Shown: positions 7,901-24,527 of the stretch, in pieces
How the letters are laid out: every line of letters begins with the position of its first letter
Numbering within the stretch: position 1 is the stretch's first letter
IMG/VR virus record: IMGVR_UViG_3300001681_000087
Location: 1-28,447 of that record
Strand: one strand, 5' to 3'
Origin: a virus
Length of the DNA: 28,447 nucleotides
Position numbers and translations under genes: made by a program
Notes under the pieces: generated by a model
The model's database searches: none
The model's input: the letters and a program-made list of their open reading frames with translations, nothing else
What the model was told of the DNA's origin: nothing

Positions 7901-8612
7901 CACTGGAAGGTTCGACTCCACTATCCTCAAGCCATGAGAGCAGACCCCTGTTGTCCGAGAGAACTCCGACTGAAGCAAAGAGGTCTTCGTAACGACGGCG
8001 CAGGTGGGGGTCTGCATTCGCCAAATCCAGGTGGACTTGGTGTAGTTGAGTGCCAACCGTTGGTCCAAAGGCTTCGAGGAAATCAGCCTTACGGCCCTCA
8101 AGGGCTCCATCAAAAACCATGCGAAGGTGGGCTTCTGGAACAGTCACGAACCCCTCAGAATAGGTCCACACGCTCGGGTCCAACTCTCCGGAAATGGTGA
8201 GGTTGCTTAAAACCTGACCTGAACGAGAACCGAACCCAGCCTCCTTGCCGAACCCTTCCTGGCTTGTGATATCGAAGATGCCTTTGGTTACGTCCTTGAA
8301 GATCTCTCCAGCGGTTTCTGGACTTGTGGCCTCAATAAGACCCTGCACCGCTTTTCTCGCCGCACTTGTTACGACGGGTCCGTACTTTTCCCTGCTGTTG
8401 CTGAAGTCGAAGTTGATGGTCGGTATTTTATCGAGGGCAGATATCGTCGCGTCGGTCGAACCCAACCAGGGGACCGTCCATGTCCCGTCGAGGTTGTCGA
8501 TCCATTGGAGTGCGGTTGCCCCCTTTGAGAAGGCATCAAGAGGTCGGTTGATGTCCTCAAGGGAGGCTTCTGGAAGATCGACTGGTCCGGCTTGTCCTGC
8601 CTGCGTGGTCAT
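1905..8612 (-). CDS. Giant internal virion / DNA-ejection protein (2235 aa)
   Basis: This single open frame of 2235 residues is by far the largest gene. Its place, last of three probable internal proteins and after the nozzle and fibre genes, matches that of the large ejection proteins of podoviruses (T7 gp16, 1318 aa, in a different family). Several glycine/alanine-rich hydrophobic stretches are visible (near residues 385, 525 and 650-690), with a long Arg/Lys/Glu/Ala-rich helical region around 840-960. A central part near 1540-1570 reads GNLTFLNADTTNRNLMSSL and near 1735-1755 ENNTPFTSHFLKFTFEN; both look like segments of large phage polyvalent proteins (roughly N-P-A-F-x-x-R-N and P-F-x-x-F motifs). 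The C-terminus is basic. I see no lysozyme, transglycosylase or peptidase motif. The start overlaps the previous stop by four bases (ATGA) and has GGAGATGAAGA before it. The role is inferred from size and position. Confidence 0.8.
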   Translation of the reverse strand: MTTQAGQAGPVDLPEASLEDINRPLDAFSKGATALQWIDNLDGTWTVPWLGSTDATISALDKIPTINFDFSNSREKYGPVVTSAARKAVQGLIEATSPETAGEIFKDVTKGIFDITSQEGFGKEAGFGSRSGQVLSNLTISGELDPSVWTYSEGFVTVPEAHLRMVFDGALEGRKADFLEAFGPTVGTQLHQVHLDLANADPHLRRRYEDLFASVGVLSDNRGLLSWLEDSGVEPSSDPSIRKEGRRVWQSWNPLRKIDRGDILVIEDPELSRALRKGTKKEVEEAKLSATKKAQNVAGFFGSEIWGDIYNKKRNDYFILALIEAQEEVKTWLEQDKAGRPLQYAGTGLALHQLFLNASNNAVEELISDVGVAASKDWGVKNLPEGAFWLIGEIIMGAIHLMDRVVPGTGEAPENLLKNYGVSVPPMVQGSVEMVESYYRNFSGDAEGTTGQIADLNERFQIYQSFLQETMETAEAKFRSDSKGVTDTELKAKLWQRALGYEFGNAYGLLGRFQGGQHDSNGRGRFAGAMVGGAAAALITEFPKGLPTNASPQDVFKFSTLLSGATLGDALNPRHSVAKKYAADPENRRKFLQILRPAATPEYIDKIFKHWDNEGMTDLKTAEQKVLGEAKALLEAIAGGVGQRSLQSFAYSTLTDPLIAAGGLKLGLAVSRTAASVIKGYAKQLKGALPKFSLKSAREVLEAQRTIEINARRSGEKQPVPEVMTLKALRRVATDVADDTFEATLEFVENLNRSTGSTSISDGVSRAGDLASAIRALSRGLQLARDQGKSKVTSAEGLTVNADVLGLLNVLNEVSGAEGALILLSLTVKYPKGTTLTEISKQARNNLRRLDETATQSRRQALTSAAKNKAARREALRAPGGEAVSKRRARTIETEAISREASSEVKQATKRIASEVDNTLKDWATEQKQIYKDSTRSGVERQEAKGRLDLIAAIQVRMTKENFTDALFRGRDLSEPVTVAPLRKGRRARVDAETSSEMLKRLKKTKSVKFLTEAEAVQLFGRKNATDLGVRGKSWGELVEAIDNSITAEGKAQAARALENIVVNSALEPVKFGKLRKEILTLWGLDKLSKASKGLGISKLIEPGVSKYLNYQAASAYKARYEGARNLARARRRQAEKDFDQVSALSDVDVARYLQGGVQVKKFTHSELLAIERVRSVLLEMQRSMRDLGMIEGAGRFEGTYFPFVRVFAEGSKKARGVTDNKGSTTGTSARPFLHRGEAQASALGEEARAAASILYLLDGLSPKRAHKVKEKMKLDRGFIEKMNAGLVQDALISELPEFFLNGRAMKEASSPSFSLKRLTSAGIHRLVSDLSSVERRQLYKLGRVTEALRRQGLRGSRLADEADAAMRDPKIAAELVDSVRDSVTNKLLPTTEAVQNLTLGRVPHYDVMFRNLKLRDIDHGKKYSPVNLLKSAKVEEAKFVVPKIIEQEMANIEIAKVFREMLDDPGVVQWAAEGKPVYFRGFREKAELVEEVFRDSPAVLRVIGRNNAQRPREMKAYIHPTMAKTIKAMAEGQGAALKAMGAVGRFVRGNLTFLNADTTNRNLMSSLEYLQMGGLNIFTKSGAKYYLEASKIVSERGPMYDLLMAEGVVGVSYVDAVSATGGRSAARTISEKLALKAGKDFSRGGERTVAGTASDALILALKGLGEVTFVKGNLRDSASRFYGGLDDTARVAMALKRMAEGHPIRGIGRIVDDVYPNYSSGSVPNRIISEMENNTPFTSHFLKFTFENYRVMLNNLRKRPHLVAANMAFWHTPTVMAKQRYGITDAAMSELLAGYSDPKSGFEVFQDYMSHVALPFGEPYGNVTWDRSNAGAIASVFARPFHRPTDNDAVNYVSGQVLQMFRGSPLVSAFAGLLTGVDPFTGRPIVPEGTPTEVSIPTYLGRTVGRLLVPGRQNRAAYALAMERGASALSSMIAEELPEEREYKSDEDALVMAIRALANAVSPEGKRLRLAETGAENPFLLGKHSFPIEMLRVFGGLKLEHGTDGRRINRIINIADRFSPHGTGVKSANVVEFQDILDNRGEEAALKWAEEKKLGVSWARDQLVQSKRDPFEARVHQIPDLETRYWVFRQAQLAGVSPPNLLKLDMAWRVKALAEYTALYRGTGANTPKMALEYLEDIEILATLLKEKSGVDLRDENGAVVIKDIENRLQGLLRGSRLESAFRELPTLIMIDALFATIGEGTTAPVEAARIIETLRKEALDNARRTEAAGRQRR

Positions 8613-9757: not shown

Positions 9758-10414
9758 TCACAACCATGTCGGGGTGTTGTTGCCGGAGGCATTTCCACCT
9801 GAGTTGTTGAACCCTCCGCCACCGTACAAGTTCATTAGTTGGTTCTGGAATGACTGCTGGTTCTGCATTCCTTGGATCGCGAATGCGTTGTTCAGTCCAG
9901 CGTTGAGTTGGTTCAGCATCGTTGCTCTGTTTGCCTGTCTTGTCTGAGAATTCAGCGCGGCCTGCTCAAGTCCCAGGTTCGGACCAGCAACCTGCTGGAA
10001 GATCTGGTTGTAGGGTCCGCTTGTCATAAGCCCAAAGGCGTTATTCATCGCCTGGCTTCTCATCTGTTCGCCGAACTGTAGACCAGCGAAGCTCGACTGG
10101 AGGGCGGAAGTGGGGGAGTTCTGGACTCCGCGAGCAGCCTGTTGTTGGTAGACCCTGCTCTGGAAGGCATCCTCTAGTCGAGCGGTTCGCCCGGGGTCCG
10201 AAAGGCCACCGAGAACCATCCCCTCAAGGCCAGAGAACACAGGGTTCATCCCCCGGTATTGCTCCATAAACTGGGGGCCGAACTGGCGCAAGAACCCTAG
10301 TTGCCCCTGAAGACCTTGACCAAACGCTTGGTTCAGGTTGGGTGAACTTTGCCCCCCTCCGAACAAGCCCCCAAAAATGGAAGCACCAGCACTCAATGCC
10401 TGAAGCCAACTCAT
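9758..10414 (-). CDS. Internal virion / DNA-transfer protein, T7 gp14-like shape
   Basis: This 218-residue protein begins MSWLQALSAGASIFGGLFGGG, a short hydrophobic glycine-rich segment like the N-termini of podoviral internal core proteins (T7 gp14-like) and other DNA-transfer proteins. The rest is Gln/Asn/Ala/Gly-rich and low in charge (QMRSQAMNNAFGLM, LNNAFAIQGMQNQQSFQNQL), probably helical, with a Gly/Asn-rich tail. Position supports the call: it lies after the nozzle and fibre genes and before the 379-residue and giant proteins, as in podovirus ejection modules. AAGGAGGCCAA gives a strong ribosome-binding site before the ATG. The function is inferred from composition and order, not from a conserved motif. 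Confidence 0.65.
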   Translation of the reverse strand: MSWLQALSAGASIFGGLFGGGQSSPNLNQAFGQGLQGQLGFLRQFGPQFMEQYRGMNPVFSGLEGMVLGGLSDPGRTARLEDAFQSRVYQQQAARGVQNSPTSALQSSFAGLQFGEQMRSQAMNNAFGLMTSGPYNQIFQQVAGPNLGLEQAALNSQTRQANRATMLNQLNAGLNNAFAIQGMQNQQSFQNQLMNLYGGGGFNNSGGNASGNNTPTWL

Positions 10415-10423
10415 TTGGCCTCC

Positions 10424-11776
10424 TTATCTTTTCACTAACTGGAATGTTGGTGTTCCCATCCCATGGTTTTCCCAAGTGTCTATGCTAAGACTTGGTTGAA
10501 TGGCAATATCGGCCTGGGCCAGGCCTGGAGCCCCAACCTTAAGGTTCATGGTCGAACTACCCGAAGTAATAGGACCAAGCGCCCAGACGGCGAAATACTG
10601 GAGTTCGCAAGTGTAAACTCCGGTAGCCTCGACCAGATAAGTTGCTGATAAACCATGCAACCAGAGGCCAGATTTATAGGTCTGATTAGTTGTGCCCGGT
10701 GTCGCCTCCCCCCACTGAGTAAGATTGCCGCCTTCTAACCTTCTTGTAATAAGGTCGTCTTCTGGTTGGGGGTTTTCACCTGTGGCTTGAGCATGGAGAT
10801 TAGGTCTGAGGTTGTGCGCGACGGAGGACATTACCGCCTTCCCCGAGGAGTCCCGTATCAAAATCCTCCAGCCCTCTGGGGGTCTGTCGGTGCGTCCATT
10901 GCCATTGGCCCCAGGCTCATGGTTTCTTACGGCAAAGTCTCTAGCCTGAACAATCAACAATTCTCCAGCGTTGAGAGTCGGGCTGTCGATAGAGAAGTTC
11001 ACGTCAGAAGTTACTCCACCGATTGATACATCGCAGCGCAGGGTTGTCCAAGTATGCGCTGCGGCTGAAAAATTTCCAGCGAGGTCGGTTTTAGGGATAA
11101 CAGTGTCTGCTGTGGGGGCGATTGTTTTTGAAGCCAAGATGGAAGTGCCTGCAATGTTCGCCTTGACTGGGAAGATCAGCGCGTACCAGATCGTTGAGTC
11201 GGAAGGGTCTACTTGGACAAGACGACCAAAAACGCCGTCTGTCATGCTGGGTGCTGCTACTGCTTCGCCTTCAGTTGTTGACGAAGTAATGTAGTCGCCT
11301 CTAGCGGGAACTGGGTCGTTGCCAACCTTTACCTGCGCGTAACCATCTCGGCACACTCTTACCTTGTTGTTCTCAGGACTCTGAACCACAACACCAACAA
11401 CACCCGTGTCTGCCGCAGTCGTCGTCCTTACCACCGTATTGTCTGCGGTCGTGTCAAGGACAACCACCTCGCCTGCAAGCGGAGTTCCGGTATAGGAAAA
11501 CACCGTCTCTGCATTTAGGGCTGCTGAGTGCCAAACACCACCCGACCTCGCTTTGAACTCCCCGCCCTGAGCCCCAAAGGCAGCCCCGGTATCGAACCAG
11601 AGATCTCCCACGCCAGAGGACGGAACGATATTGTTCAGTTGCGGTAGACGGTGGTCTGTCTTTACGTCAGCCGACGTAATGTTCAGTACCGATGCATTGT
11701 CCACGAGGTTATTGAGGCTGTCAGCCGTAACTTCCTGTCCCGTTGCAAAGGTATGGCCCTTTTGTAGATCAGCCAT
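10424..11776 (-). CDS. Putative tail fibre / virion appendage protein
   Basis: This 450-residue protein starts MADLQKGHTFATGQEVTADSLNNLVDNAS; the phrase VTA-x-x-LN-x-LVD is common at the N-terminus of phage tail fibre and baseplate-attached proteins. Short beta-rich segments follow, including VGDLWFDTG (about 57-65), which resembles the 'GD-x-W-x-D' strips found in fibre proteins, and a region rich in Thr, Val and Gly (about 90-200). The C-terminal half (about 230-450) appears to be beta-sandwich-like. I recognise no enzymatic motif. It lies between the nozzle and the internal protein genes, and its ATG overlaps the nozzle stop (TAATG), so it is expressed with the tail. It could be a receptor-binding fibre or a capsid appendage. 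Confidence 0.62.
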   Translation of the reverse strand: MADLQKGHTFATGQEVTADSLNNLVDNASVLNITSADVKTDHRLPQLNNIVPSSGVGDLWFDTGAAFGAQGGEFKARSGGVWHSAALNAETVFSYTGTPLAGEVVVLDTTADNTVVRTTTAADTGVVGVVVQSPENNKVRVCRDGYAQVKVGNDPVPARGDYITSSTTEGEAVAAPSMTDGVFGRLVQVDPSDSTIWYALIFPVKANIAGTSILASKTIAPTADTVIPKTDLAGNFSAAAHTWTTLRCDVSIGGVTSDVNFSIDSPTLNAGELLIVQARDFAVRNHEPGANGNGRTDRPPEGWRILIRDSSGKAVMSSVAHNLRPNLHAQATGENPQPEDDLITRRLEGGNLTQWGEATPGTTNQTYKSGLWLHGLSATYLVEATGVYTCELQYFAVWALGPITSGSSTMNLKVGAPGLAQADIAIQPSLSIDTWENHGMGTPTFQLVKR

Positions 11777-13449
11777 TATTCAAGGTTCTCCTGTTCTGGT
11801 ATGGCGTTGACGCTGTAGTAGAGGATCTTGGTCCTGTTTGTCCCATACACACGGAACTTGAACTGCATCTCCCGAACAGCCCCAAACGAGTCTAGGTAAA
11901 ATCGATGCCTGTTTAGTCCCCCCTCGGTAAGCGTGAAGGGGAGCGTGAGGCCACCGACAGCAGGATCTGGCAGGGTTACAGCCCCGTCTGTTATTGTCAT
12001 CTGGTCGTGCTGGACAAGAGAAGCCTCGTCTGGAGCCACCCATAACTCTACAGCTCCCCCTGTCGCACCCATGCAGAACAGGTCCAGGAATTGGAAGTGC
12101 TTGCGGTAGTGTGTCCCTCCGAATGAAAACCGGGGAGTCTCTACAATGCTCTCGATAGGAGTGACATTGTCCGCATTGGTTGCCGAAGGGAAGACCTCGT
12201 AAACCTTGCCGTTTGCAGTGTCCCCGAAGTACAGACTCTCCATCCCGCTGAATCTGGCAAGCTGAAAGTCATTCACGTTCCAGCCTGTGAAGATTGACCA
12301 GGCCTTTTCCAGCATGTCGTAGACAAGGACAGTGTTATTCGAGGTCGCGGAGTCGAGGGGGACTGCAAGCATGTACAGGTTCTCCCAGACAACCCCAACT
12401 GCGTTTTCTGCATAGTCCCAATTGATCCTGCTGATTGTCCCCTGGATGTTGTCAGAGATCGGATGCACCACTCCGAGAGGTCGGTCCTGTTCTGTCTTTG
12501 AAAGACGGTGGACCCCAAACCGACTCAAGAAGAAGAAGTCGTGACCCGCCTGGACAACAGACTCAGGGGCGATTGTCCCGACATCGCTGTTCAGCGGCAT
12601 GATCGCAGTGGAGTCAAAGAGCAGGTCGCCAAAGTTGGCCTGGTCGATGTCAAGGAGCCAAATCGACTCTCGCATGAAGCAAATGATCCCGTTCTGCATG
12701 AAGGGGATGATCCGCTGCATCTGGTCGTTTGGGTTTATCAAATACCCCTCAGTTGTGTCGAACGTGGAAGGATTTCCAGGCTTGGAGAAGTAGACATACC
12801 CGTCATTTTCCCCTTCTCCTGCAATCCAAAGTCGAGAGAGCCAAAAGGCCGCGTCTTTGCCCTGGGGGACGCTGCGCTTGAGCCCATTGGCCTCCCCATT
12901 CACCTTGGATAGGGATCGGGATCCAGAAAATGCAAAGACATCCAGGTTCCCTTCCTCCAGGAAGTAGGTTTGGTCTTTTTGAGCGCTCATCGTATCGAAA
13001 ACCTGAACAAACCTAACCCGATTCCCTGTCGGACCACTACCAGTGGCACCAGAAGGGAGCTCCAGGACTTCCCAGCCAGTTCCAGGTGTCCCCTCCCAGC
13101 GGTAGTAACCTGTAACAGGAGGAGTCCCGCCGACGTTCTGCCCGATTGTGGCTAGGAGTCTGTTGCTGGGAACGGCAGCGTTCGGCAGGTGTGCGCCCAG
13201 TCCGTAGACCCTACCAGCTTGAGTGTACGTCTGAAGGCCAGCGGATGTTATATCCGATATACCCGGACGCTTCTCAGCAAACGCCCCCTGCTTGATTCTC
13301 ATATTCTGAATCAAGGAGGCCTCGTTTTCGGACAGGCGGGTTGGGTGAATCTTCGTATTCATCCCACCAGTCAAGGAGTCCACCACAAATGTTGCTGAAG
13401 GTGAGTCCAGCGCCTGTGGAAGCGCCCTGTAACCCTGAGTTCCTGCCAT
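11776..13449 (-). CDS. Tail nozzle / stabilisation protein (P22 gp10 / T7 gp12-like)
   Basis: This 557-residue protein shows features of podoviral nozzle (tail hub) proteins: an early GGMNTKIHPTRLSENEASLIQN (about 29-50), where such proteins typically have a 'GG-(L/M)N' followed by an E-A-x-x-x-x-N motif; then repeated beta-propeller-like strands (RLWIAGEGENDGYVYFS, IWLLDID, FFLSRFGVHRL, YMLAVPL, LVYDMLEKAWSIFTGW). Phrases such as VYD-x-x-x-x-x-W are typical of blades in this family. It would form the tube through which DNA leaves the head, below the adaptor encoded by the preceding gene. GGGAGAGTCTG precedes the ATG, and the start overlaps the adaptor stop (ATGA). The family call is from pattern memory; a structural comparison would settle it. 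Confidence 0.68.
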   Translation of the reverse strand: MAGTQGYRALPQALDSPSATFVVDSLTGGMNTKIHPTRLSENEASLIQNMRIKQGAFAEKRPGISDITSAGLQTYTQAGRVYGLGAHLPNAAVPSNRLLATIGQNVGGTPPVTGYYRWEGTPGTGWEVLELPSGATGSGPTGNRVRFVQVFDTMSAQKDQTYFLEEGNLDVFAFSGSRSLSKVNGEANGLKRSVPQGKDAAFWLSRLWIAGEGENDGYVYFSKPGNPSTFDTTEGYLINPNDQMQRIIPFMQNGIICFMRESIWLLDIDQANFGDLLFDSTAIMPLNSDVGTIAPESVVQAGHDFFFLSRFGVHRLSKTEQDRPLGVVHPISDNIQGTISRINWDYAENAVGVVWENLYMLAVPLDSATSNNTVLVYDMLEKAWSIFTGWNVNDFQLARFSGMESLYFGDTANGKVYEVFPSATNADNVTPIESIVETPRFSFGGTHYRKHFQFLDLFCMGATGGAVELWVAPDEASLVQHDQMTITDGAVTLPDPAVGGLTLPFTLTEGGLNRHRFYLDSFGAVREMQFKFRVYGTNRTKILYYSVNAIPEQENLE

Positions 13450-14357
13450 CAGACTCTCCCGGTCCTCACGTTCATGTCAGGCATGAACATGAAACTGTTG
13501 TCCTCGTTGATTCTGTCTTTTGTGAAGTCCTCTAGGAGTTCCTGAAAACGCCCCTCCTCGACCCCGGCCTGAGCGAACTGGCGGAGATTCTTCAACAAGT
13601 CGCTGAAAGCACCGACCACCAGAATGTCTTCGCATGGGAGAATGGTGGAGTCGTTGTCAATCTCAAGGTCGTCCATCATGATCGAGAACACCATGTTCAG
13701 AACCGTTTCGCTTGTTGGGATGGGATGCAACCGAATGATCGGGTAGCGGGAGACGCACTCCTTGGGTGCAATCGCGCCCATTGTCACAGGCGTCGATTCT
13801 ACTGAGACCAGCGTGACTGTCCCCCCTGTCCCACTCTCCTTTGAGAAGGACACCACTTCATCGTATAAATTTGCTGTCGTACCGCCCACAAAAGTCTCGT
13901 CCTCGAACATTAGGCCGTCTTTGTAGCCCTTTATCCTGTACTTGTAGACAAGGTTGTCCCCAGCGAGATCCGAAGTTGCGGTGAGTCGCGCTGCGGCACT
14001 AGGCTGGGTGTGGACGCCACGAGTTCCCAAGCGACTGTAGTAGCAGGAGACCCCGGTTCCGCTGCCAATGGTGTTAATGAACCGCTCAGTCAGATCCGTA
14101 TCCGGGAGCGGTAAAATCACTCGGTCATTGGCCCTGTCGTAGAGGCGGAGGATCTTATCGACATTCGCAGGAAGGCCGACAACCTCAGAAGAAACGGTAA
14201 CGGTCGTCTCCCCAACCAGCTCTGGCCATGCGTAGCGCCGCAGTATCTGCTTGTAACGCCTGTTAATAGCCTGCTTTACGACAGTCTCTTTCTCAGTATC
14301 TGTCCTGTTAGCGAGTTTCATTACCTCGCCCATCATCTCACCGAGGGTCTTCGCCAT
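13449..14357 (-). CDS. Putative head-tail adaptor protein
   Basis: I place the start at the ATG at 14357, not the longer frame upstream: GGAGGAAACGATA gives a strong ribosome-binding site there and the ATG overlaps the previous stop as TAATG. The 302-residue protein begins MAKTLGEMMGEVMKLANRTD with helices to about residue 45 (INRRYKQILRRYAWPEL), then becomes beta-rich with a glycine/threonine-rich middle and a helical C-terminus (FSDLLKNLRQFAQAG, EGRFQELLEDFTKD). Helical N-terminus, tyrosine/tryptophan before a beta domain, and the position directly before the nozzle gene match head-tail adaptors (gatekeepers) of podoviruses, for example T7 gp11, though this one is longer. The assignment rests on position and general shape. 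Confidence 0.6.
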   Translation of the reverse strand: MAKTLGEMMGEVMKLANRTDTEKETVVKQAINRRYKQILRRYAWPELVGETTVTVSSEVVGLPANVDKILRLYDRANDRVILPLPDTDLTERFINTIGSGTGVSCYYSRLGTRGVHTQPSAAARLTATSDLAGDNLVYKYRIKGYKDGLMFEDETFVGGTTANLYDEVVSFSKESGTGGTVTLVSVESTPVTMGAIAPKECVSRYPIIRLHPIPTSETVLNMVFSIMMDDLEIDNDSTILPCEDILVVGAFSDLLKNLRQFAQAGVEEGRFQELLEDFTKDRINEDNSFMFMPDMNVRTGRV

Positions 14358-17182
14358 TATCGTTTCCTCCGCATCCAGTTCGCCAATTGCCGCATCGCCC
14401 GCTCTCCTGCAAAGCAACAGTCAAGCACTGCATAACTACCCAACACCACTCCAGCACCCTCAGTGGCTTCGCCGGACATTATGTATTGCCCATGTATGTC
14501 TTTGTTTACTATAGGCGAAACAACTAGATACTCACCAGTAATCTGGTCCGCATCCTCTGCTCGAATCTCATAGGCACCACCCGTATCTGGCACAGACCTC
14601 ACCGAGAAAGTCGCAGTAGTGGTCTCTACCCCTGAAGAAGTGACGACATAGGCACCAGAAATGGTTCCCGAAGGTTGAACCTCGAAAGTGCCGGAAACTC
14701 CCGTTGTGGCTTCTACAGCGTAGGAACAGTCCGATATGGATGCCTGCCCCTGAACCGCGTAGGCCCCCGAAGTCACCTCAACCGAAGAGAAGGTCACTAC
14801 GAACGTAGCACCTGTATCAGGGGCCTGTTGATAGGTTATGGCGTAGAACGCGGAGACCCTCTTTGCCTCCGAAACAAGGTAGGTTGCGGCAACCGTCGTT
14901 CCTGAAGTGATTGCGAATTCTGCCTCGGCAGCAGTAGTAGCAGACTGAACAGCGAACGCTCCGGTTGCCGCAGTTACCGTACTCGCCGCCTCCACGACAT
15001 ACGTTCCGCCAGAAGTCGCCGCCACCTCGATGGCATAAGCTCCTCCGGTTGTCCCCGACAAACTCCCGCTATCCAACGAATAGGAGCCCGAAGTCTCTGT
15101 TGCCGTTTGGACTGCATAAGCAGCGGTTGGGGCAGCCGTGGATTGGTACTCAAGGACATACCCACCAGAAGTAGTGGTCCCAACCCTGACCGAGTACGAC
15201 CCTCCAGTCGCCGTAAGCGTCTGAGCCTCAACGACGTAGGTTCCGGTTCCGGCGGTTACCGTGTGCCCGATCTCAAAGGCACCGCCTACTGTTCCTGTCT
15301 GCGCTGACTCGACAACATACGTTCCGCCAGAAGTAGTCGAAGTTTGGACGGCATAGGCACCAGCAGGTTCGCTCGTATTCTGGTAGGTCAGAACATAGAC
15401 ACCAGCAGTTGTCGTTGCAGATCTCAGCGCGAAAGCGCCGCCAGCAGTACTCGTGAAACTTTCGACAACTTGGTATTCACCACCGGAAGTAGTTGCAACC
15501 TGGACGGCGTATGTTCCCCCAGGTGTTCCCGTCTCCTGGTAGGTGATGACATATTCACCGCCAGTTGTCGTCGCAACTTCAACAGCATAAGCACCACCAG
15601 GAGTTACTGACTCTTGGTAGGTGATTACATAAGTACCTGTGATCGTCGGCTGCTCTGATCCAGAGATGTTGTAAGAACCACTGGTATCCGTTGTTGCTTG
15701 TAGAGCGTAGGCTCCGCTGGGAGTCGTTGTCTCCTGGTAGGTGATTACAAAAGACCCGCCAGCAGTATCTGTCTCCTGATAGGTGATGACGTAAGAACCA
15801 CCAGCAGTATCTGTCTCCTGGTAGGTAACTACATAAGCACCCGTTATTGTCGGCTGCGATGACCCGGAGACATTGTAAGAACCGCTGGTGGCCGTTGTTC
15901 CTTGTAGAGCGAAGGCTCCACTAGGGGTCGATGTCTCCTGGTAGGTGACAACGTAGGCACCACTAGTAGTTGTTGACGCTTGAACCGCGAAATCGCCAAC
16001 TAATAGTGGCTTTACCTCCACAGCGACGGCATAGGCACCACTGGTTATAGTTGCGGCTTTTACAGCATAGGCTCCGCCAAGTGCAGTGGCCTCCGTAGCA
16101 GTGACTACATATTCTCCGCTGGTGGTGGTGGCAGCTTGTACCGCGAACGCTCCACCAGTAGTTGTGGAGCTCTTTACTGCATAAGCACCGCTTGGAGTTG
16201 CCGTATACTCAGTACTTGTAACCCCCTCCGGAATAACAACAGACAGGCCGGCAAAGCCATTCACTCTGGCGTCTGTACCCCAACCCATATAATCATTAGT
16301 CGCACCCCAATCAGTGTTGGCACTGGAAAACGATCCGTGCTTCTCAAAGTACAGAAGAGAATAACAACCAGAACCAGAAACCTCGTCGATCCCCTTGAAG
16401 GTCGTACCAGACCCATAGTCAACATTAGCGGCCCCATCGAGTAGGCCTACATTTCCTGACGGTGGGACAGTCAGCGTCCAAGGACAATTCAATACAGCAC
16501 TTGCTGGGAGAACGAATGTTTCTCCCTGGTCACCGGCAGTGGAAATCGTAACCAGATCCGATCCGGCCCTTCGCCACCCACCCCAACTGACGATTAGCGG
16601 ATTGTCCATGCCTGTAGCGGTGCCAACATAAGTGCCGTCGCTTGGTTGGTTCCAAAAACAAGCCTCTGTTGAAGTGTCATTGACACCATGGACAGACGAC
16701 ATGGAGATCGTCGCTATATCCGAGAGAGTCGCGCTGGCACCACGGACAACAATCATTCTTATGTGGCTGGCTCGACAGGTAGTAGAGCCAACGATCCGGC
16801 AAGCAAGTGCGGGGGCACTAGCACTACCAGTAGATTGAAAGTCTGTGCTTGTGAGGTACTTACCAAACGCTATCGACCCTTGCTGGTTTCCGTTGCCACC
16901 ACGAGCGAATCCAAGATCAACCCAACCAGTGGTTACCCAATCCGGTAAAGTTCCGGTGTCAAGGTTACTACAGGTAAAGGTGTGCCCAGTTGTTGGGTGT
17001 AGTCCATTGGAAGTGTTTGGCATGGGGCCATTACTTGACCGCTCGTAAGTTCCAAAGACAATAACGAGATCATCAACCTGTGGGACCAGCGAGCCACTGT
17101 GAGCAGCAACTGTTGTTGAAGTGGACTGATTGGCCGCTGGGGCTGCATCTTTCGCAGCAAAGTTGAGAATCTCAGTGGCCAT
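14357..17182 (-). CDS. Repetitive fibre / surface protein with ~40 short beta repeats
   Basis: The first 330 of 941 residues form a non-repetitive, Ser/Thr/Gly-rich N-terminal domain (with WVDLGFARGG, LIVSWGGWRR, MGWGTDARVNGFAGLS). Residues about 332-896 are an array of about forty imperfect repeats of 12 and 14 residues that mostly alternate, each starting G-x-[YF]-x-[VIL]; typical copies are GAYAVQxATTTS and GAYVVTYQETxTPS. The C-terminal 45 residues end in a different, basic sequence (RAMRQLANWMRRKR). Strict spacing of aromatic and beta-branched residues predicts a long beta-solenoid or similar rod. It lies between the LamG protein and the adaptor, so a tail fibre or capsid surface fibre is likely. 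The ribosome-binding site is weak. No enzymatic motif is seen and I do not know a named family for the array. Confidence 0.7.
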   Translation of the reverse strand: MATEILNFAAKDAAPAANQSTSTTVAAHSGSLVPQVDDLVIVFGTYERSSNGPMPNTSNGLHPTTGHTFTCSNLDTGTLPDWVTTGWVDLGFARGGNGNQQGSIAFGKYLTSTDFQSTGSASAPALACRIVGSTTCRASHIRMIVVRGASATLSDIATISMSSVHGVNDTSTEACFWNQPSDGTYVGTATGMDNPLIVSWGGWRRAGSDLVTISTAGDQGETFVLPASAVLNCPWTLTVPPSGNVGLLDGAANVDYGSGTTFKGIDEVSGSGCYSLLYFEKHGSFSSANTDWGATNDYMGWGTDARVNGFAGLSVVIPEGVTSTEYTATPSGAYAVKSSTTTGGAFAVQAATTTSGEYVVTATEATALGGAYAVKAATITSGAYAVAVEVKPLLVGDFAVQASTTTSGAYVVTYQETSTPSGAFALQGTTATSGSYNVSGSSQPTITGAYVVTYQETDTAGGSYVITYQETDTAGGSFVITYQETTTPSGAYALQATTDTSGSYNISGSEQPTITGTYVITYQESVTPGGAYAVEVATTTGGEYVITYQETGTPGGTYAVQVATTSGGEYQVVESFTSTAGGAFALRSATTTAGVYVLTYQNTSEPAGAYAVQTSTTSGGTYVVESAQTGTVGGAFEIGHTVTAGTGTYVVEAQTLTATGGSYSVRVGTTTSGGYVLEYQSTAAPTAAYAVQTATETSGSYSLDSGSLSGTTGGAYAIEVAATSGGTYVVEAASTVTAATGAFAVQSATTAAEAEFAITSGTTVAATYLVSEAKRVSAFYAITYQQAPDTGATFVVTFSSVEVTSGAYAVQGQASISDCSYAVEATTGVSGTFEVQPSGTISGAYVVTSSGVETTTATFSVRSVPDTGGAYEIRAEDADQITGEYLVVSPIVNKDIHGQYIMSGEATEGAGVVLGSYAVLDCCFAGERAMRQLANWMRRKR
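14494..16189 (-). repeat. Tandem 36/42-bp coding repeats in the fibre gene
   Basis: About forty in-frame units of 36 or 42 bases encode the 12- and 14-residue beta repeats. Some neighbours are nearly identical in DNA, for example three 42-base units around 15720-15840 that encode variants of GSYVITYQETDTAG. Such near-identical units can expand or contract by slippage or recombination and could change fibre length. Other units have diverged strongly at DNA level while keeping the G-x-[YF]-x-[VIL] pattern, which indicates selection on the protein. Confidence 0.8.
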
Positions 17183-17183
17183 A

Positions 17184-18299
17184 TCAGGTCACCGTGATCT
17201 CTACCGTCAACTCCCCTGGGTTCTGGCACTTCGTTATGTAGAAACGAAGCAAATCCCTGTCTGATATAGACTGACTTGTACTCGTTACAGTCCCATAGGT
17301 AGACGACAACGTGATGTCTGAAGACAGTTTATAGGTCGGTGCATACGGGTTGCTACTCTTGTACGTGTGGCCCGAAGGTAGCGGGTTGGCCTGTCCGCTC
17401 CCGAACCACTTATGGGCTAGGTATCCCTCCACAATATCCATGTTGGTTGCACTGAGAGCGCCCTCGAACATCAGCAACTCACTCAACCCAACCTCCATGA
17501 AATGCTGAGAACTTGAGTTCTCAGAGACGCCGATAGCGTTGAAGTTGAAGTTGTTATCTGGAGTCAGCCCAGTGCTCAATGTTGAGTTGGAATAGAGGGC
17601 TGCGGCCCCGTTTATGTACTCTGTCACACCCCCAGCGTTACTGTTTGCCGTAGCGTCGTATACCATGACTCGGATCTCGTCCCCACCCAACTCATCTCCG
17701 GAGGACGTAACCTCGTCGCCGTCGTCATTCCTTATCGCGTGGTCCCTGTTGCTTGTTCCCCACCGAGCCTGGAATGCAGAAGCGCCAGTGTCCCTTGTTC
17801 CTATTATGGCGTCGTCCCTTGCGGACCAGTAATCGCCAATCACAAAGACACAAGTCCAACTCTTTGCATCCGTGAGGTTATAAGTTCCCGAAGCACCGTT
17901 CAGGAAGTAGTCTGAACCGTCGAAGTAGACTGACTCTGATCCGCCAGGGCCATTATCAGTTGTGTATCTAGGGATCGCAGTTGAGGTTGTCTGATTAAAC
18001 CAAGCCAAATTCTTATTATAGGAATACCAACGACCGCTCGCGAGCGAGTTGCCGTCTGAAAGGGCAAAGTGGTCTTCTGCACGGAAGTGCCAGATCAACG
18101 GACCTTCAAGATCGGAGTCATCAATAACCGAAGCGGTTGTGGGATCGACCGAGTAGTTAAACGTCCCTGTCCCAGATGAAAGTTTTGCTCGAATGCCAGT
18201 TATCGTCGTTGAGCCGTGGTACAGTTTAACTCCAGCAACGTCTACGGCATGGAACCCGTCTGGGGCGCATGAGGAAACAGTGTGCTCGTAGGTCGCCAT
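17184..18299 (-). CDS. LamG / concanavalin-like lectin domain virion protein
   Basis: The 371-residue protein has a short N-terminal beta region (to about 80), then a LamG-like (concanavalin-type jelly roll) domain from about 85 to 310. Support: GPLIWHFRAEDHF at the domain start, SVYFDGSDYF, SWTCVFVIG, and a closing signature MDIVEGYLAHKWFG then LPSGHTYK (about 283-307), which is characteristic of LamG-like domains in phage and marine proteins. Such domains bind carbohydrates, so it is probably a surface appendage used in attachment or capsid decoration. GAGGAG nine bases before the ATG gives a strong ribosome-binding site. It lies just before the repeat fibre gene with a one-base gap between stop and start, so the two are probably made together. 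Confidence 0.72.
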   Translation of the reverse strand: MATYEHTVSSCAPDGFHAVDVAGVKLYHGSTTITGIRAKLSSGTGTFNYSVDPTTASVIDDSDLEGPLIWHFRAEDHFALSDGNSLASGRWYSYNKNLAWFNQTTSTAIPRYTTDNGPGGSESVYFDGSDYFLNGASGTYNLTDAKSWTCVFVIGDYWSARDDAIIGTRDTGASAFQARWGTSNRDHAIRNDDGDEVTSSGDELGGDEIRVMVYDATANSNAGGVTEYINGAAALYSNSTLSTGLTPDNNFNFNAIGVSENSSSQHFMEVGLSELLMFEGALSATNMDIVEGYLAHKWFGSGQANPLPSGHTYKSSNPYAPTYKLSSDITLSSTYGTVTSTSQSISDRDLLRFYITKCQNPGELTVEITVT

Positions 18300-18305
18300 T
18301 TGTCG

Positions 18306-18650
18306 TCACTCCTCGTGCAGAACGATCTTCCCTCCGACGAACTCCCACAGCCTCTTCCCTGAATCGGGTATCTCCCACCCGAATACTTGAGTCACTTCGT
18401 GTGTAGCCGTACCGCTGTCTTGAGAGACTCCGACTGTATGCTTTTCGTGGATCACCGGACGAGCCCCTAGAGGAAGCTCAATCAGGAACGGGTAAGGCAG
18501 ATTACGACCAGCGATCAGCAACGAACGAAGATCATGCTCGCGAGCAAACTTCTGCCCTTTGCCTCGACCGTCAACCAACACCCCGTTACTGGTACGACCC
18601 GACCAACCGAGCACTTCTTCATGTCCCCAGCGGTAATCTTCTTCTGACAT
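18306..18650 (-). CDS. Unknown small virion-region protein (114 aa)
   Basis: I recognise no family. The protein is soluble, with mixed charge: an N-terminal part with aromatic residues (YRWGHEEVLGWSGR), a basic middle (GRGKGQKFAREHDLR), and a strand-rich C-terminal half (YPFLIELPLGARPVI, WEFVGGKIVLHEE). No membrane helix or signal is seen. Its ATG overlaps the stop of the 199-residue gene (TAATG), so it is probably translated together with that structural gene, and a small virion or assembly role is the natural guess. The frame is intact and codon pattern is like its neighbours. Confidence 0.6.
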   Translation of the reverse strand: MSEEDYRWGHEEVLGWSGRTSNGVLVDGRGKGQKFAREHDLRSLLIAGRNLPYPFLIELPLGARPVIHEKHTVGVSQDSGTATHEVTQVFGWEIPDSGKRLWEFVGGKIVLHEE

Positions 18651-19869: not shown

Positions 19870-20217
19870 TTACTTCGGGTCGCGCAACTTGAGTCTTGAA
19901 AACGTATTGAGGAAGCGATCAACGCCCCCTTCGCGCTCCCAGAAGCCTGGGCACAACTTATTGATGAGATGCCACGGACGAATCGGAATCGCTGCCTTGA
20001 GCATGTGCGTCCCGCCAAGCGACATCCCGTTGCTCTTGTGTTTGGTCTCTCTTAGCAAGCGAACGTCCCGCATGAAGTTCTTGACCTCCTGTGGGTACTT
20101 TCGACGCCACAGTTCCATGACCTTGTCGAGCAGCCGCTCTTCGGCACCAGCAAGGTTAAAGGTCGGGGAGGCTGCCGAAGCAGCCCCCCCAGCAACGAAG
20201 GAGGTGCGATCACTCAT
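19870..20217 (-). CDS. Unknown protein following the capsid gene (115 aa)
   Basis: The 115-residue protein has a low-complexity Ala/Ser start (to about 25), then a helical, basic segment (EERLLDKVMELWRRKYPQEV, about 26-45), and a conserved-looking stretch with tryptophan and proline (NGMSLGGTHM, AAIPIRPWHLINKLCPGFW, about 63-93). I recognise no family. Its ATG overlaps the capsid stop (TAATG), without a clear ribosome-binding site of its own, so it is probably coupled to capsid translation. Being next to the capsid gene, it could be a capsid-associated, head-completion or neck protein. Confidence 0.6.
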   Translation of the reverse strand: MSDRTSFVAGGAASAASPTFNLAGAEERLLDKVMELWRRKYPQEVKNFMRDVRLLRETKHKSNGMSLGGTHMLKAAIPIRPWHLINKLCPGFWEREGGVDRFLNTFSRLKLRDPK

Positions 20218-21164
20218 TAAGTTACGCCGGTAAAGCGACCAAGCCCGTAAGAGTTGCGTACCTCAAGTGTCACTTCGTGGTAGACAGACCCTGGCTGGGC
20301 GTCAGTTGTCCGAGCATATTCTTCCGCACGGGTAGGCTGAAGGAATGCCTTCGCAAAAAGATCACGCTGGAAGGCGTAGCACTCGCCCGACACATTGTGC
20401 CGCGAAAGGTGGATCGAGAGATTCCCGAAGTCCGACTGGTAGTACATGATCGAATTCCGGATCGTATCGCCAGCGGACCCATCAATGTTCCTCTGGATGG
20501 TGGATCCAGCAGTAAACCCAGTGATGTCAACCTTGCCCGCCGCATTGGCAAGAATGGTGTCTGTTTTCGCTCCCTGGTCCCACATTCTCTCAAGCAGGGT
20601 ATTGAGTGTAGCTTCAGTCAGGTTTGCTACGCTATGGTTTTGGGCTGGGGTATCGATGATGTCGAGCGGGTCTCCAGGAGACCCAGCGGAGGCAGTACTG
20701 AGTGGCGTCCATTTAGTCAGCCCATTCATTACTCGTGCAGTGGCCGAGGTCCCTGCCGCCAGGGTTCCCGTCAGGAGTGCTGATTCAGTATTCCTGGCCA
20801 GTTCTCGCATCCCCTTGTCGAGTTGGTAGGCAAAGGCATCAGTCATACCAGCGTTATCAACCGCTCGCATGGTATCAGTGACCGCGAAGTCTCTCCGCAA
20901 GATCTGGGTGCTGTTGGTCTGCCTGACAGGCTTGCGAGTCACCGCATGAGCAAACGCAGTCCCTTCCGCTGACCCCGCAGCACTGACAGGCTCCAAGTCA
21001 TCAAGCAACCACTCGTGCGTTGTTGAACGCGCCACTGTAGATTCAATCATCGAAAAAAACGGGGTATCCGCAGGATCGATGTTCGAGATGATGTCAATTA
21101 AATCTTCGCGAATCGACGCGGCAAGTGTAGAGCCGGTGTCCGCCGCATAGGTATGAAGAGCCAT
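20217..21164 (-). CDS. Major capsid protein, SU10-type (HK97 fold)
   Basis: The 315-residue protein opens with the signature of SU10-like major head proteins: REDLIDIISNIDPADTPFFS (about 19-38) followed by a 'HEW-x-x-D-x-L' motif (HEWLLDDLEP, 50-59). In this family these lie in the N-terminal arm and early core of an HK97-type capsid fold. Further typical parts are TQILRRDFAVTDTMRAVD, LARNTESALLTG, and a C-terminal strand region RNSIMYYQSDFGNLSIHLSRH. The length is in the family range. It assembles into the icosahedral shell around the scaffold encoded by the preceding gene. The ribosome-binding site is not obvious, which is unusual for the most abundant protein of a virion; coupling or an upstream RNA element may compensate. 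Confidence 0.85.
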   Translation of the reverse strand: MALHTYAADTGSTLAASIREDLIDIISNIDPADTPFFSMIESTVARSTTHEWLLDDLEPVSAAGSAEGTAFAHAVTRKPVRQTNSTQILRRDFAVTDTMRAVDNAGMTDAFAYQLDKGMRELARNTESALLTGTLAAGTSATARVMNGLTKWTPLSTASAGSPGDPLDIIDTPAQNHSVANLTEATLNTLLERMWDQGAKTDTILANAAGKVDITGFTAGSTIQRNIDGSAGDTIRNSIMYYQSDFGNLSIHLSRHNVSGECYAFQRDLFAKAFLQPTRAEEYARTTDAQPGSVYHEVTLEVRNSYGLGRFTGVT

Positions 21165-22082: not shown

Positions 22083-22384
22083 GAGTAATCTTGAGGCTTA
22101 CGACCTGCTTCCGCGAAGACGCCAGTAAGGAGGTCTTCCACGCCCTTCACCGCGCCTCGAACCTCATGCAACTCAGCCTCTTCTCGCGTATTAACCATCC
22201 TAGAAAAAAGGTCGATCTTCTGACGTTCAGCCATGACCTCAAGGACTGCGAAAACGCCCCCCTGGATCATCTCCCTGCATGTTCCCGATATTCGGCGATT
22301 CTGCTCAACGTCCGGCTGAGACTTCAATTCATCCAGAGCGGCCTGGTGGGCGAGCTCAAGCGATGAGTTCCCCTGCTGGTTCAA
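22079..22384 (-). CDS. Unknown small protein between portal and scaffold (101 aa)
   Basis: The start is a TTG at 22384, inside the last codons of the portal gene (29-base overlap), with GGAGG six bases upstream. The 101-residue protein is helical and charged (SLELAHQAALDELKSQPDVEQ; VFAVLEVMAERQKIDLFSRM; EEAELHEVRGAVKGVEDLLTG). I recognise no family and see no membrane helix. Position between portal and scaffold suggests an assembly or head-related role. The deep overlap with the portal suggests coupled translation. Confidence 0.6.
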   Translation of the reverse strand: MNQQGNSSLELAHQAALDELKSQPDVEQNRRISGTCREMIQGGVFAVLEVMAERQKIDLFSRMVNTREEAELHEVRGAVKGVEDLLTGVFAEAGRKPQDYS

Positions 22385-24527
22385 CTCCTGCCTCCTGTCC
22401 CTGAGCAGGCGGAGCTTCGGGCAGCATCATGTAAGTCCTTGTGCCCTCAGTCTTTACCTGCGCCCCTTGTTGCTGTAACTGCTCAAGAAGAACGCTATCC
22501 CCAATCTTCGCAAGGTGTAGTGCGAGGTGGCCAGTGAGAAGGAGCGTCAGTTCCGGATCGTCCGCGTTGGCCTCAAGCGCCTGCTGAAGCACCGGGATGT
22601 GCAACTGGTGGGGATCTCCCTGGTCCACAGGCGCGACCATTTTCATCGTCTGCATGAGCTGGATCTCTGAGACTTGCTTCTGGGCGGCGTCCTCCTCGAA
22701 GAGTCCCGGCCCCCGCAACAACCTTCTTGAGGAGCGGAAATCAGAGTTCTCGAAGTAGTCTCTCAGGATCTCAAAGTGGTTTACAAACGGGCTGAACACC
22801 GGGTTTGCCGCCACTTGCATGTCTGCGAACGCCTTCTCCACTCGCGACCGACTGCTGATGTTGTCGAGTCGTCCAGTTGGAACCAGATCGAAATCCTTGT
22901 AGAGATCCCAGCGGTTAAATACCAACGGTTGAGCGCCACCATCGACGTTGATCATCACAGAGGGGTCGCCGTACTGCGCCCACAAGAACAGTGTTTGTCG
23001 GTGAAGCCTTCGCATCGACTCTTGGAAGATCTGAAGGTCGAGATTCGCAACCATATCGCTCATCCTGGAGATCTCTGAAACCTCCGTTGCCGTTCGGCGC
23101 TCAACTTTCTGGTTCACGTTCGAGATGCCGAAATCGGTAACTCCTACATACTCCTCTGCATATGCCTTGAGTGTGCGCTCTTCGTTATCGAAAGAGTAGT
23201 CAAGTGCCTGAAAGGCCAGGGGCTTGATATCGTCCATTCGCCTGACTGGGATGTAGGAACCCGGCCTGAACCTCAAGTTCGACGAGTTCCTGATCGACCC
23301 TTCACGCACCAGGAAGGTGAGCGAGTTCTGGATTGTCATGCGATCAAGTTTCGCATTGTGCTGGGCGTTGATCTCGGTCTGGATGTCGTTGAGCATTTCT
23401 GGGATCCCCCTGGGGGAGTACCATCTCGGCTCATTAGCCTCATGCACAAATCGAGTGAATGGCCACATCCCATGCTCGTAGGGGAACTCGACGAGGCGCA
23501 GGACTTCTCGCCCCTGCGGGCTGATTGTCAGGACGCACCTTTCGGCAATCCCGTCGCCATTGATATCGTGGTGGAAGTAGACCTCAAGAACCTCAACAAA
23601 CGAGGAGTCCTCTGCGCTTTGCAGCATACCCTCGCGCCTCTCTCGGATTGCGTCCAGGACAGAATCCGTGCGGAGTCTTTTGCTTGCACGTTCTCCGTCT
23701 GCAACCTTGCGAGCGGCCTCCATGTTGTACATACCGTTAATCCCTCGCTCGACGATCTGATCGGGCTTGAGGAACATACGATGTGCAATCCATGGAAGAT
23801 CGTCCACGTCATCTGTGGAGTCCCAGGGGACCACGATGTCCCTGGGGTCAACAAAGACCCAGCGTGGAGCGTTGTACTTCGTCACCTGGAGACTAACTTC
23901 CAGTTTCTCATTCCCAGCACGGAACTGGCGAGCCATTGATTCGTAGGCTGCCGCATCGTCGGGACTGTCGCCGACAATCCCCAACTGTTCTGCGAACTGA
24001 CCGAGCTCCTCGTCAGTAACTGCCCCCCGGTCAACTTTGAGTCCTGTTAGGTCTAGCACTCTGGTTGACCGTTCGGTCTTGTGCTCCCAAAGACATTTGA
24101 TAATGGACATGCCGTAAGTAAGGAACGAATCGATACTATGGAGCTGAGCTTCGCGGCACCGAGACATGCGGAAGCGCAGAAGCCAGTCGTAGAAGGCCTC
24201 GATCCTGTGCGACCGTTCCGGGTCGGCATCGCCAATCGCTTCTATTGAAACTACCGGGTTCATCCCGAATACCGCGTTCACAAAGACTGGCTTCTGGTGC
24301 CGAATGACCTTATCTGTGAGTGGCAGGTGGATGTTGGAACTTCCCGGCCAGGGGAAGTCCTTTTTCTTCCTGATACCGTAGCGTTTCTTGTAGTAGGCCT
24401 CAGACTTGGACTCCCATTCGCTTCGGTGGCTCAGGGCCTCACTTACAGACCCGACTATTTTATTGACCTCTTCGTCTGAGATCACAGCGGTGACCGCTGA
24501 CACTGCCTCTGGGTGTTGTTCTGGCAT
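22356..24527 (-). CDS. Portal protein
   Basis: The 723-residue protein carries features of P22-like portals: KDFPWPGSSNIHLPLTDKVI (about 56-75), a run of alpha/beta segments (SFLTYGMSIIKCLWEHK; WVFVDPRDIVVPWDS), a conserved core GIPEMLNDIQTEINAQHNAK (about 377-396) at the clip-wing junction, and a helical, Gln-rich C-terminus (LEQLQQQGAQVKTEG). The length fits the long portals of podoviruses. Twelve copies form the DNA channel at one vertex and dock the terminase motor encoded just upstream. GGAG lies before the ATG. The start is one base after the terminase stop. Together with TerL it supports the packaging module. Confidence 0.85.
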   Translation of the reverse strand: MPEQHPEAVSAVTAVISDEEVNKIVGSVSEALSHRSEWESKSEAYYKKRYGIRKKKDFPWPGSSNIHLPLTDKVIRHQKPVFVNAVFGMNPVVSIEAIGDADPERSHRIEAFYDWLLRFRMSRCREAQLHSIDSFLTYGMSIIKCLWEHKTERSTRVLDLTGLKVDRGAVTDEELGQFAEQLGIVGDSPDDAAAYESMARQFRAGNEKLEVSLQVTKYNAPRWVFVDPRDIVVPWDSTDDVDDLPWIAHRMFLKPDQIVERGINGMYNMEAARKVADGERASKRLRTDSVLDAIRERREGMLQSAEDSSFVEVLEVYFHHDINGDGIAERCVLTISPQGREVLRLVEFPYEHGMWPFTRFVHEANEPRWYSPRGIPEMLNDIQTEINAQHNAKLDRMTIQNSLTFLVREGSIRNSSNLRFRPGSYIPVRRMDDIKPLAFQALDYSFDNEERTLKAYAEEYVGVTDFGISNVNQKVERRTATEVSEISRMSDMVANLDLQIFQESMRRLHRQTLFLWAQYGDPSVMINVDGGAQPLVFNRWDLYKDFDLVPTGRLDNISSRSRVEKAFADMQVAANPVFSPFVNHFEILRDYFENSDFRSSRRLLRGPGLFEEDAAQKQVSEIQLMQTMKMVAPVDQGDPHQLHIPVLQQALEANADDPELTLLLTGHLALHLAKIGDSVLLEQLQQQGAQVKTEGTRTYMMLPEAPPAQGQEAGVEPAGELIA

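Follow-up and report, generated by a model that had tools for sequence, protein, structure and literature searches.

An array of 44 short repeats lies in a protein encoded by an IMG/VR virus record of 28,447 nt (hereafter the window), and this protein is, on balance, probably a phage surface fibre in which a C-terminally anchored repeat stalk carries an exchangeable and probably host-binding N-terminal tip. Among relatives, the array gains and loses whole units, and the N-terminal domain is replaced together with the adjoining gene (gene 1) at sharp boundaries, while the C-terminal tail and the flanking genes remain constant. All sequences considered are metagenomic contigs, without isolate or known host.

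Genomic context of the array gene

The portal, major capsid protein (MCP) and adaptor of the window all match SU10 Pfam families (Table 1). By these head and neck genes, the window would be assigned to an SU10-like (Kuravirus-type) podovirus; its source is a marine-type tailed phage. The order MCP, small genes, gene 1, array protein, adaptor and nozzle candidate is common to the window and to contigs L006 and L046, and gene 1, array protein and adaptor also follow one another in L042. More generally, the array gene adjoins the adaptor gene in L042, L048 and L050-L052 as well, and in the window the ATG of the adaptor gene overlaps the stop codon of the array gene (TAATG). The PHROG matched by gene 1, phrog_10356, is filed under 'head and packaging', and the gene 1 product looks concanavalin/LamG-like by eye only.

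Elsewhere in the window, a 450-aa protein (10424-11776), possibly a second fibre, is 26% identical to that of L006 and evolves faster than the nozzle candidate (53%) and a 218-aa protein (69%). A 2235-aa protein without PHROGs or NCBIfam match (1905-8612) has an antisense open frame of 323 aa at 5284-6255, and a Mom-like DNA modification protein is encoded at 214-738 (phrog_1384, 5.7e-29). The terminase, portal and scaffold proteins of contig L004 are about 99% identical to their window counterparts, but the L004 MCP (10001-10948) is only 85% identical to that of the window (20217-21164); the contig ends inside a 199-aa gene.

Table 1. Features of the window and of two related contigs (window positions unless a contig is named).
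Feature	Position	Strand	Basis
Portal, SU10 family	22356..24527	(-)	PF23899, 4.5e-36
Major capsid protein, SU10 family	20217..21164	(-)	PF17236, 1.4e-69
114-aa gene, constant left flank of the cassette in relatives	18306..18650	(-)	48-50% identical orthologues in L006, L046, L008
Gene 1, 371 aa, travels in the cassette with the N-domain	17184..18299	(-)	phrog_10356 'virion structural protein', 1.6e-10
Array protein gene, 941 aa (N-domain, 44-unit array, C-tail)	14357..17182	(-)	ORF; orthologues at matching gene position in L006, L042, L046, L048, L050-L052
N-terminal globular domain, residues 1-331, non-repetitive	16190..17182	(-)	cassette half fused to the array
Repeat array, 44 units, residues 332 to ~914	14441..16189	(-)	unit parse of the 941-aa protein
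Segmental duplication, 192 nt, 78% identical, block of several units	15588-15779 / 15792-15983	(-)	DNA repeat family
Most recent tandem duplication of the array, 42 nt x2.7, TYQETDTAGGSYVI	15728..15843	(-)	DNA repeat
C-terminal tail, residues 915-941, conserved, candidate anchor	14360..14440	(-)	alignment of 6 orthologues
SU10-type adaptor gene, constant right flank	13449..14357	(-)	PF24175 SU10_adaptor, 7.5e-12
Nozzle candidate, 557 aa	11776..13449	(-)	gene order; 53-55% identical in L006 and L046; PHROGs connector/virion matches
Paralogous C-terminal domain of the array protein	L043:7255-7632 and L044:8984-9373		40% to next ORF, neck/tail gene region

The repeat array and its relatives

The regular repeat array described in the original prediction is real: it contains the motif G.[YF].[VIL] 36 times, whereas 2000 shuffled sequences averaged 1.1 and never exceeded 5, and motif spacings of 12-15 number 31, against 0.006 in shuffles. 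The 44 units measure 14 aa (19 units), 12 aa (18), 13 aa (three), 15 aa (three) and 17 aa (one), and consist mainly of T, A, G, V and S. The span first given for the array, 14494-16189, is correct apart from one or two degenerate final units, with which it reaches about 14441. As for the strict rule that had been proposed for the units, position 3 is indeed Y/F and position 5 V/L/I in every 12-mer (18/18 for both) and every 14-mer (19/19 for both), whereas only 13/18 and 17/19 of them, respectively, begin with glycine. Alternation of 12- and 14-residue units is likewise frequent (24 of 43 adjacent pairs, P=0.0016 against shuffled unit order) rather than strict, runs such as 14-14-14-14 being also present and orthologues using units of about 15 aa.

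Between units, the difference at codon position 3 is 0.52-0.65, even at the G/Y/V sites, and that at positions 1-2 is 0.13-0.29, a contrast that argues for an old array, maintained by selection at the protein level. Clear tandem repetition of the DNA is confined to the 42-nt repeat of Table 1, in addition to the 192-nt block duplication; this triplication and the block duplication are younger events within the array.

The orthologues are built of a 15-aa unit, GSYAVTSTGTVTTAT, present in 20 copies in L006, in two blocks in L046 and in about 41 copies in L042, L050 and L051, and the unit of L048 has 14/15 aa (TSYAVxSGDTQTLT). It had been suggested that array length can vary by gain or loss of units, and this is seen in relatives, where homologous runs of units in L006 and L046, 89-100% identical in DNA, are broken by whole-unit indels of 7, 3 and 4. 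A second globular domain, of 314 residues, sits between the two blocks of units in L046, and a homologous one (40% identical) is similarly placed between array blocks in L048, which suggests that the arrays act as spacers between domains. At the other end of the protein, YAV..G..A.RQL is found in 6/6 podovirus-type C-tails aligned, with Y, A, V, G, A, R, Q and L invariant.

Searches of Pfam, PHROGs, NCBIfam and PDB sequences with the array protein, its parts and its relatives returned sub-threshold chance matches only, and no Pfam, PHROGs or PDB family was found for the N-domain (residues 1-331); a cyclophilin match at 0.0013, spanning 50 residues of the N-domain profile, was discounted. Against 50,697 phage records, tblastn gave no match to the window protein or to four relatives, and a genome scan with the 15-aa array protein gave zero matches.

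Fold of the array

The AlphaFold2 monomer model of ten window units has a mean pLDDT of 46.7 and a pTM of 0.39, and that of the N-domain with seven units a pLDDT of 34.3. One strand is placed in each unit, at residues 3-7 in 12-mers and 3-9 in 14-mers, at low confidence. Taken with the motif statistics and the gene location between MCP and adaptor, these strands agree with the original prediction of a repetitive virion-type protein with beta-type units. The further proposal of a regular rod, perhaps of a new beta-solenoid class, gains no support from the ten-unit model: AlphaFold2 over-predicts on perfect repeats, giving confident yet unrealistic beta-solenoids (PMC11795689), and the absence of a confident solenoid here therefore lends the solenoid reading no support. 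An intertwined trimer or multimer is possibly compatible with the low-confidence monomer model.

A regular beta rod, whether a beta-solenoid or an undescribed intertwined trimer, would be compatible with a C-anchored stalk and is conceivable, though somewhat doubtful. It would account for the strict Y-x-V ladder, the 12/14 alternation and the strands at an equal place in the units, but a confident model was not obtained, the orthologues have no such alternation, and the consensus of two known beta repeats fails. Triple beta-spiral shafts, as in the adenovirus fibre and reovirus sigma1, resemble the array in their ~15-residue beta repeats with Gly/Pro turns (PMC3150272). However, their a-o consensus (hydrophobic c, e, g, k and m; Gly/Pro at j; PMC3150272) is complete in no register of the 77 orthologue 15-mers (62 distinct), the best register giving 1.0 for c and e, 0.19 for g, 0.25 for k, 0.01 for m and 0.03 for j, and the 12/14-mers of the window are too short for 15 positions. 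The YadA left-handed parallel beta-roll is similar in having ~14-residue repeats in adhesins (PMC9543794), but its GxNSVAIGAxSxAx consensus (PMC9543794) is missing here, AIG being absent from the window array and S.A.G occurring once. On consensus, the array was assigned to neither family. An ice-binding TxT solenoid, prompted by the Thr-rich units, was dropped, as supporting evidence was absent.

It is rather unlikely that the Thr/Ser/Gly/Ala-rich array is chiefly a flexible low-complexity linker without regular fold. Its composition, unit lengths that vary between 12 and 18 both inside single proteins and among them, and the failure of AlphaFold2 to yield a confident fold would all fit such a linker. 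Against it, the 12- and 14-mers all have Y/F in third and V/I/L in fifth place, codon positions 1-2 are under selection, a Y is invariant across the 62 distinct 15-mers of the orthologues, and AlphaFold2 nonetheless sets one strand per unit, in register.

Cassette exchange between near-identical genomes

The exchanged cassette, which is the main feature here and was missed by the original prediction, measures about 1.1-2.05 kb, consists of gene 1 and the N-terminal domain of the array protein, and is bounded by the gene-1 start codon (cut after ...CTGGGTGGTGACATGGC) and the first array codons (cut before ACCACCGCAGGAACCCC). Its flanks are 95-100% identical, while the cassettes themselves cannot be aligned. 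For instance, L051 and L052 agree at 99.6% across the 900 nt that end at the gene-1 start codon and at 99.7% across 4.27 kb of array and downstream sequence; between these stretches they carry cassettes of 2051 and 1076 nt with 34 alignable positions. The comparisons of L006 with L046 (98.4% upstream) and of L050 with L052 show a matching left boundary and right junction, the left boundary lying after the 114-aa gene in L006, L046 and L050-L052. L050 and L051 have a single common cassette (100% identical), and the N-domain of L052 is of a third type. Gene 1 of L052 (2929-3440) is broken by a stop or frameshift; it begins like that of L046, then its frame shifts.

Types of gene 1 and of the N-domain co-segregate, A with A in the window, L006, L042-L045 and L050, and B with B in L046 and L048; homology among N-domain types A, B and C is undetectable by profile comparison. 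The window N-domain is homologous to those of L006, L043, L045 and L050 (BLASTP, 23-26% identity, E 1e-4 to 1e-8), and its pair of N-domain and gene 1 is merely homologous to the swapped type A. The window has one near twin, 99.97% identical; the swap is known from relatives, none of which shows one around the window's own cassette.

No serine resolvase/invertase (PF00239) or reverse transcriptase (PF00078) was found in seven contigs, which are possibly incomplete, while control genomes matched. Variation driven by a DGR or an invertase thus has no supporting gene in these contigs, and ordinary recombination at the conserved flanks is the simplest route of exchange.

The cassette in unrelated phage types

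Gene 1 and the N-domain are the sole detectable homology among L006, L044 and L045, with a DNA identity of 82% over 2065 nt for L006/L044, 84% over 2050 nt for L006/L045 and 77% over 2052 nt for L044/L045. The head of L006 is SU10-type, L044 combines a lambda-type portal (PF05136) with a Mu-type MCP (PF10124), and L045 has a third set of head genes. The N-domain family is fused in frame to different arrays, with units of 12/14 aa in the window, 15 aa in L006, about 20 aa in L044 (LLSGSVAGSSTLAATLSAVR) and 21 aa in L045 (ATFAAPSATTNRLESESVSAS). A tail terminator gene lies downstream of the cassette in L044; in L043 and L044, the C-tail is replaced by a domain that is 40% identical to the next ORF, itself followed by the tail terminator gene (neck region). 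The gene just before the L044 cassette (L044:4351-4764) matches PF23140 (Podophage GP4 fiber I protein gp80, 1.9e-22), and the cassette therefore neighbours other fibre genes.

These data raise the prospect that a two-gene tip cassette, made up of gene 1 and about 200-330 leading codons of the gene after it, travels as a single unit between unrelated head/neck types, landing in frame on the stalk of the recipient. The array would then be a stalk and also a universal docking junction for N-terminal adhesins, with a polarity opposite to that of classic tail fibres, a proposal whose chances we place a little short of even.

In L042 (1-9915), a lambda-portal head module (97.8% to L044) is joined to SU10-type array, adaptor and nozzle genes (99.8% to L050); the join falls precisely between N-domain and array, where only 6 bp are common. 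L042 may have arisen by genuine recombination between phage types or be an assembly chimera; it is suspect, and no conclusion depends on it alone. The L046 contig (L060, PSPX01000020.1, 37,887 nt) is binned in the MAG Euryarchaeota archaeon Guaymas_22, which is either a host hint or a binning error.

Proposed architecture of the fibre

The array, its gain and loss of units, the exchange of the cassette with its boundaries and the constant C-tail and flanks are read directly from sequence, and from this pattern we infer the virion location, anchoring end, stalk shape and binding function of the protein. Its short conserved C-tail, encoded beside and overlapping the adaptor gene, would most likely anchor the fibre at the head-tail neck, the repeat array would form a stalk or spacer whose length shifts by whole-unit gain or loss, and the N-domain would be the distal tip. 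Together with the gene-1 product, this tip would make up a replaceable unit whose most likely role is to bind surfaces of the host or the environment. By swapping gene 1 and the N-domain together, with cuts at the gene-1 start codon and the N-domain/array junction, recombination would let the phage change its tip and retain capsid, stalk and neck.

Capsid-side and adaptor-side genes are constant while the N-domain is replaced, which makes the N-domain an unlikely virion anchor; exchange of the N-domain above a constant C-tail and the likeness of the L043/L044 C-terminal domain to a neck-region ORF both point to C-terminal anchoring near the neck. A domain that is replaced could not fit closely to a capsid and adaptor that do not change, but the constant C-tail could. 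T4 Hoc offers a precedent for this polarity (PMC10385173); the array protein would work like it, yet is no member of the Hoc family. Receptor or surface binding is suggested by exchange between near-identical genomes, as in metaviromic islands (PMC3909814); since N-domain and array have no family match, binding is read from exchange and position only.

Alternatively, the protein could be a capsid decoration fibre like T4 Hoc, whose C-tail binds the capsid and not the neck and whose tip provides general surface adhesion. Hoc has a constant C-terminal anchor and variable N-terminal domains (PMC10385173), and the same polarity and layout are found here, in addition to the filing of the gene-1 PHROG among head and packaging families. 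We nonetheless regard this as distinctly unlikely: the array gene abuts the adaptor gene with the TAATG overlap, in L043 and L044 the protein ends in a domain paralogous to an ORF of the neck region, and Pfam, PHROGs and NCBIfam gave no Hoc-type C-terminal or Ig-like domain in the window protein or its orthologues. The likeness is one of analogy, not homology, as the spacer of Hoc is Ig-like and Hoc binds capsomer centres, whereas here the repeats are of 12-17 aa and the gene lies beside the adaptor.

Described tail fibres are mostly anchored by their N-terminus. Under this conventional and commonest layout, the N-domain, which is the larger folded part, would be the virion anchor and the array would lead to a distal C-terminus, as the N-termini of the SU10 long fibre bind the adaptor (PMC9509320). 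Such an arrangement is very unlikely here, as the N-domain is wholly replaced in genomes that remain 95-100% identical in capsid, small genes and adaptor, the same N-domain is found in phages with unrelated heads and necks, and the C-tail, of just 27 aa, is conserved and uniform. The SU10 long tail fibre proteins gp12 and gp13, anchored by their N-termini, are numbered after the adaptor, gp11 (PMC9509320); fibre genes lie near the adaptor gene there as in this SU10-like phage, but here the array gene precedes it.

Finally, it is highly improbable that the apparent exchange of cassettes arose in the assembly of mixed metagenomes, in spite of every contig being metagenomic, of near-identical flanks with replaced middles that could partly reflect assembly mixing and of the join of lambda-type head to SU10-type neck in L042, because the variants come from separate IMG metagenomes (3300022913, 3300023276, 3300027868, 3300001683 and 3300025873), the L042/L044 junction shares 6 bp only (ACCACC), too short for k-mer chimeras, and mis-joined reads cannot yield a cassette of 2.05 kb that recurs in three backgrounds at 77-84% identity.

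Relation to exchangeable host-recognition modules

With a C-terminally anchored stalk and an exchangeable tip, the protein can be set beside other phage modules. In metaviromic islands, host-recognition genes of marine phages, including tail fibres with repeat shafts, vary between near-identical genomes (PMC3909814). Repeat stretches there also separate constant from variable parts, but the constant end is the N-terminus and the variable one the C-terminus; this polarity is reversed here, where a second gene is moreover co-exchanged. Alteromonas phage A5 is reported to carry a host-recognition module that is common to distantly related phages (PMC10579305). There, a whole tail fibre and its chaperone are shared, whereas here gene 1 is shared with only the N-domain of the next gene, fused to a background-specific array.

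Phage host range is driven by the exchange of modules that bind receptors, for which the usual description is C-terminal swapping on N-anchored fibres. Here, the exchange boundaries are readable to the base and suggest the reverse layout, in which a two-gene tip cassette may cross phage types and the repeat stalk tolerates unit lengths of 12-21 aa. The resulting model is directly testable, through the virion-binding end of the protein and the binding partners of gene 1 and of the N-domains, and the arrays would provide structural studies with a naturally occurring series of beta-repeat stalks.
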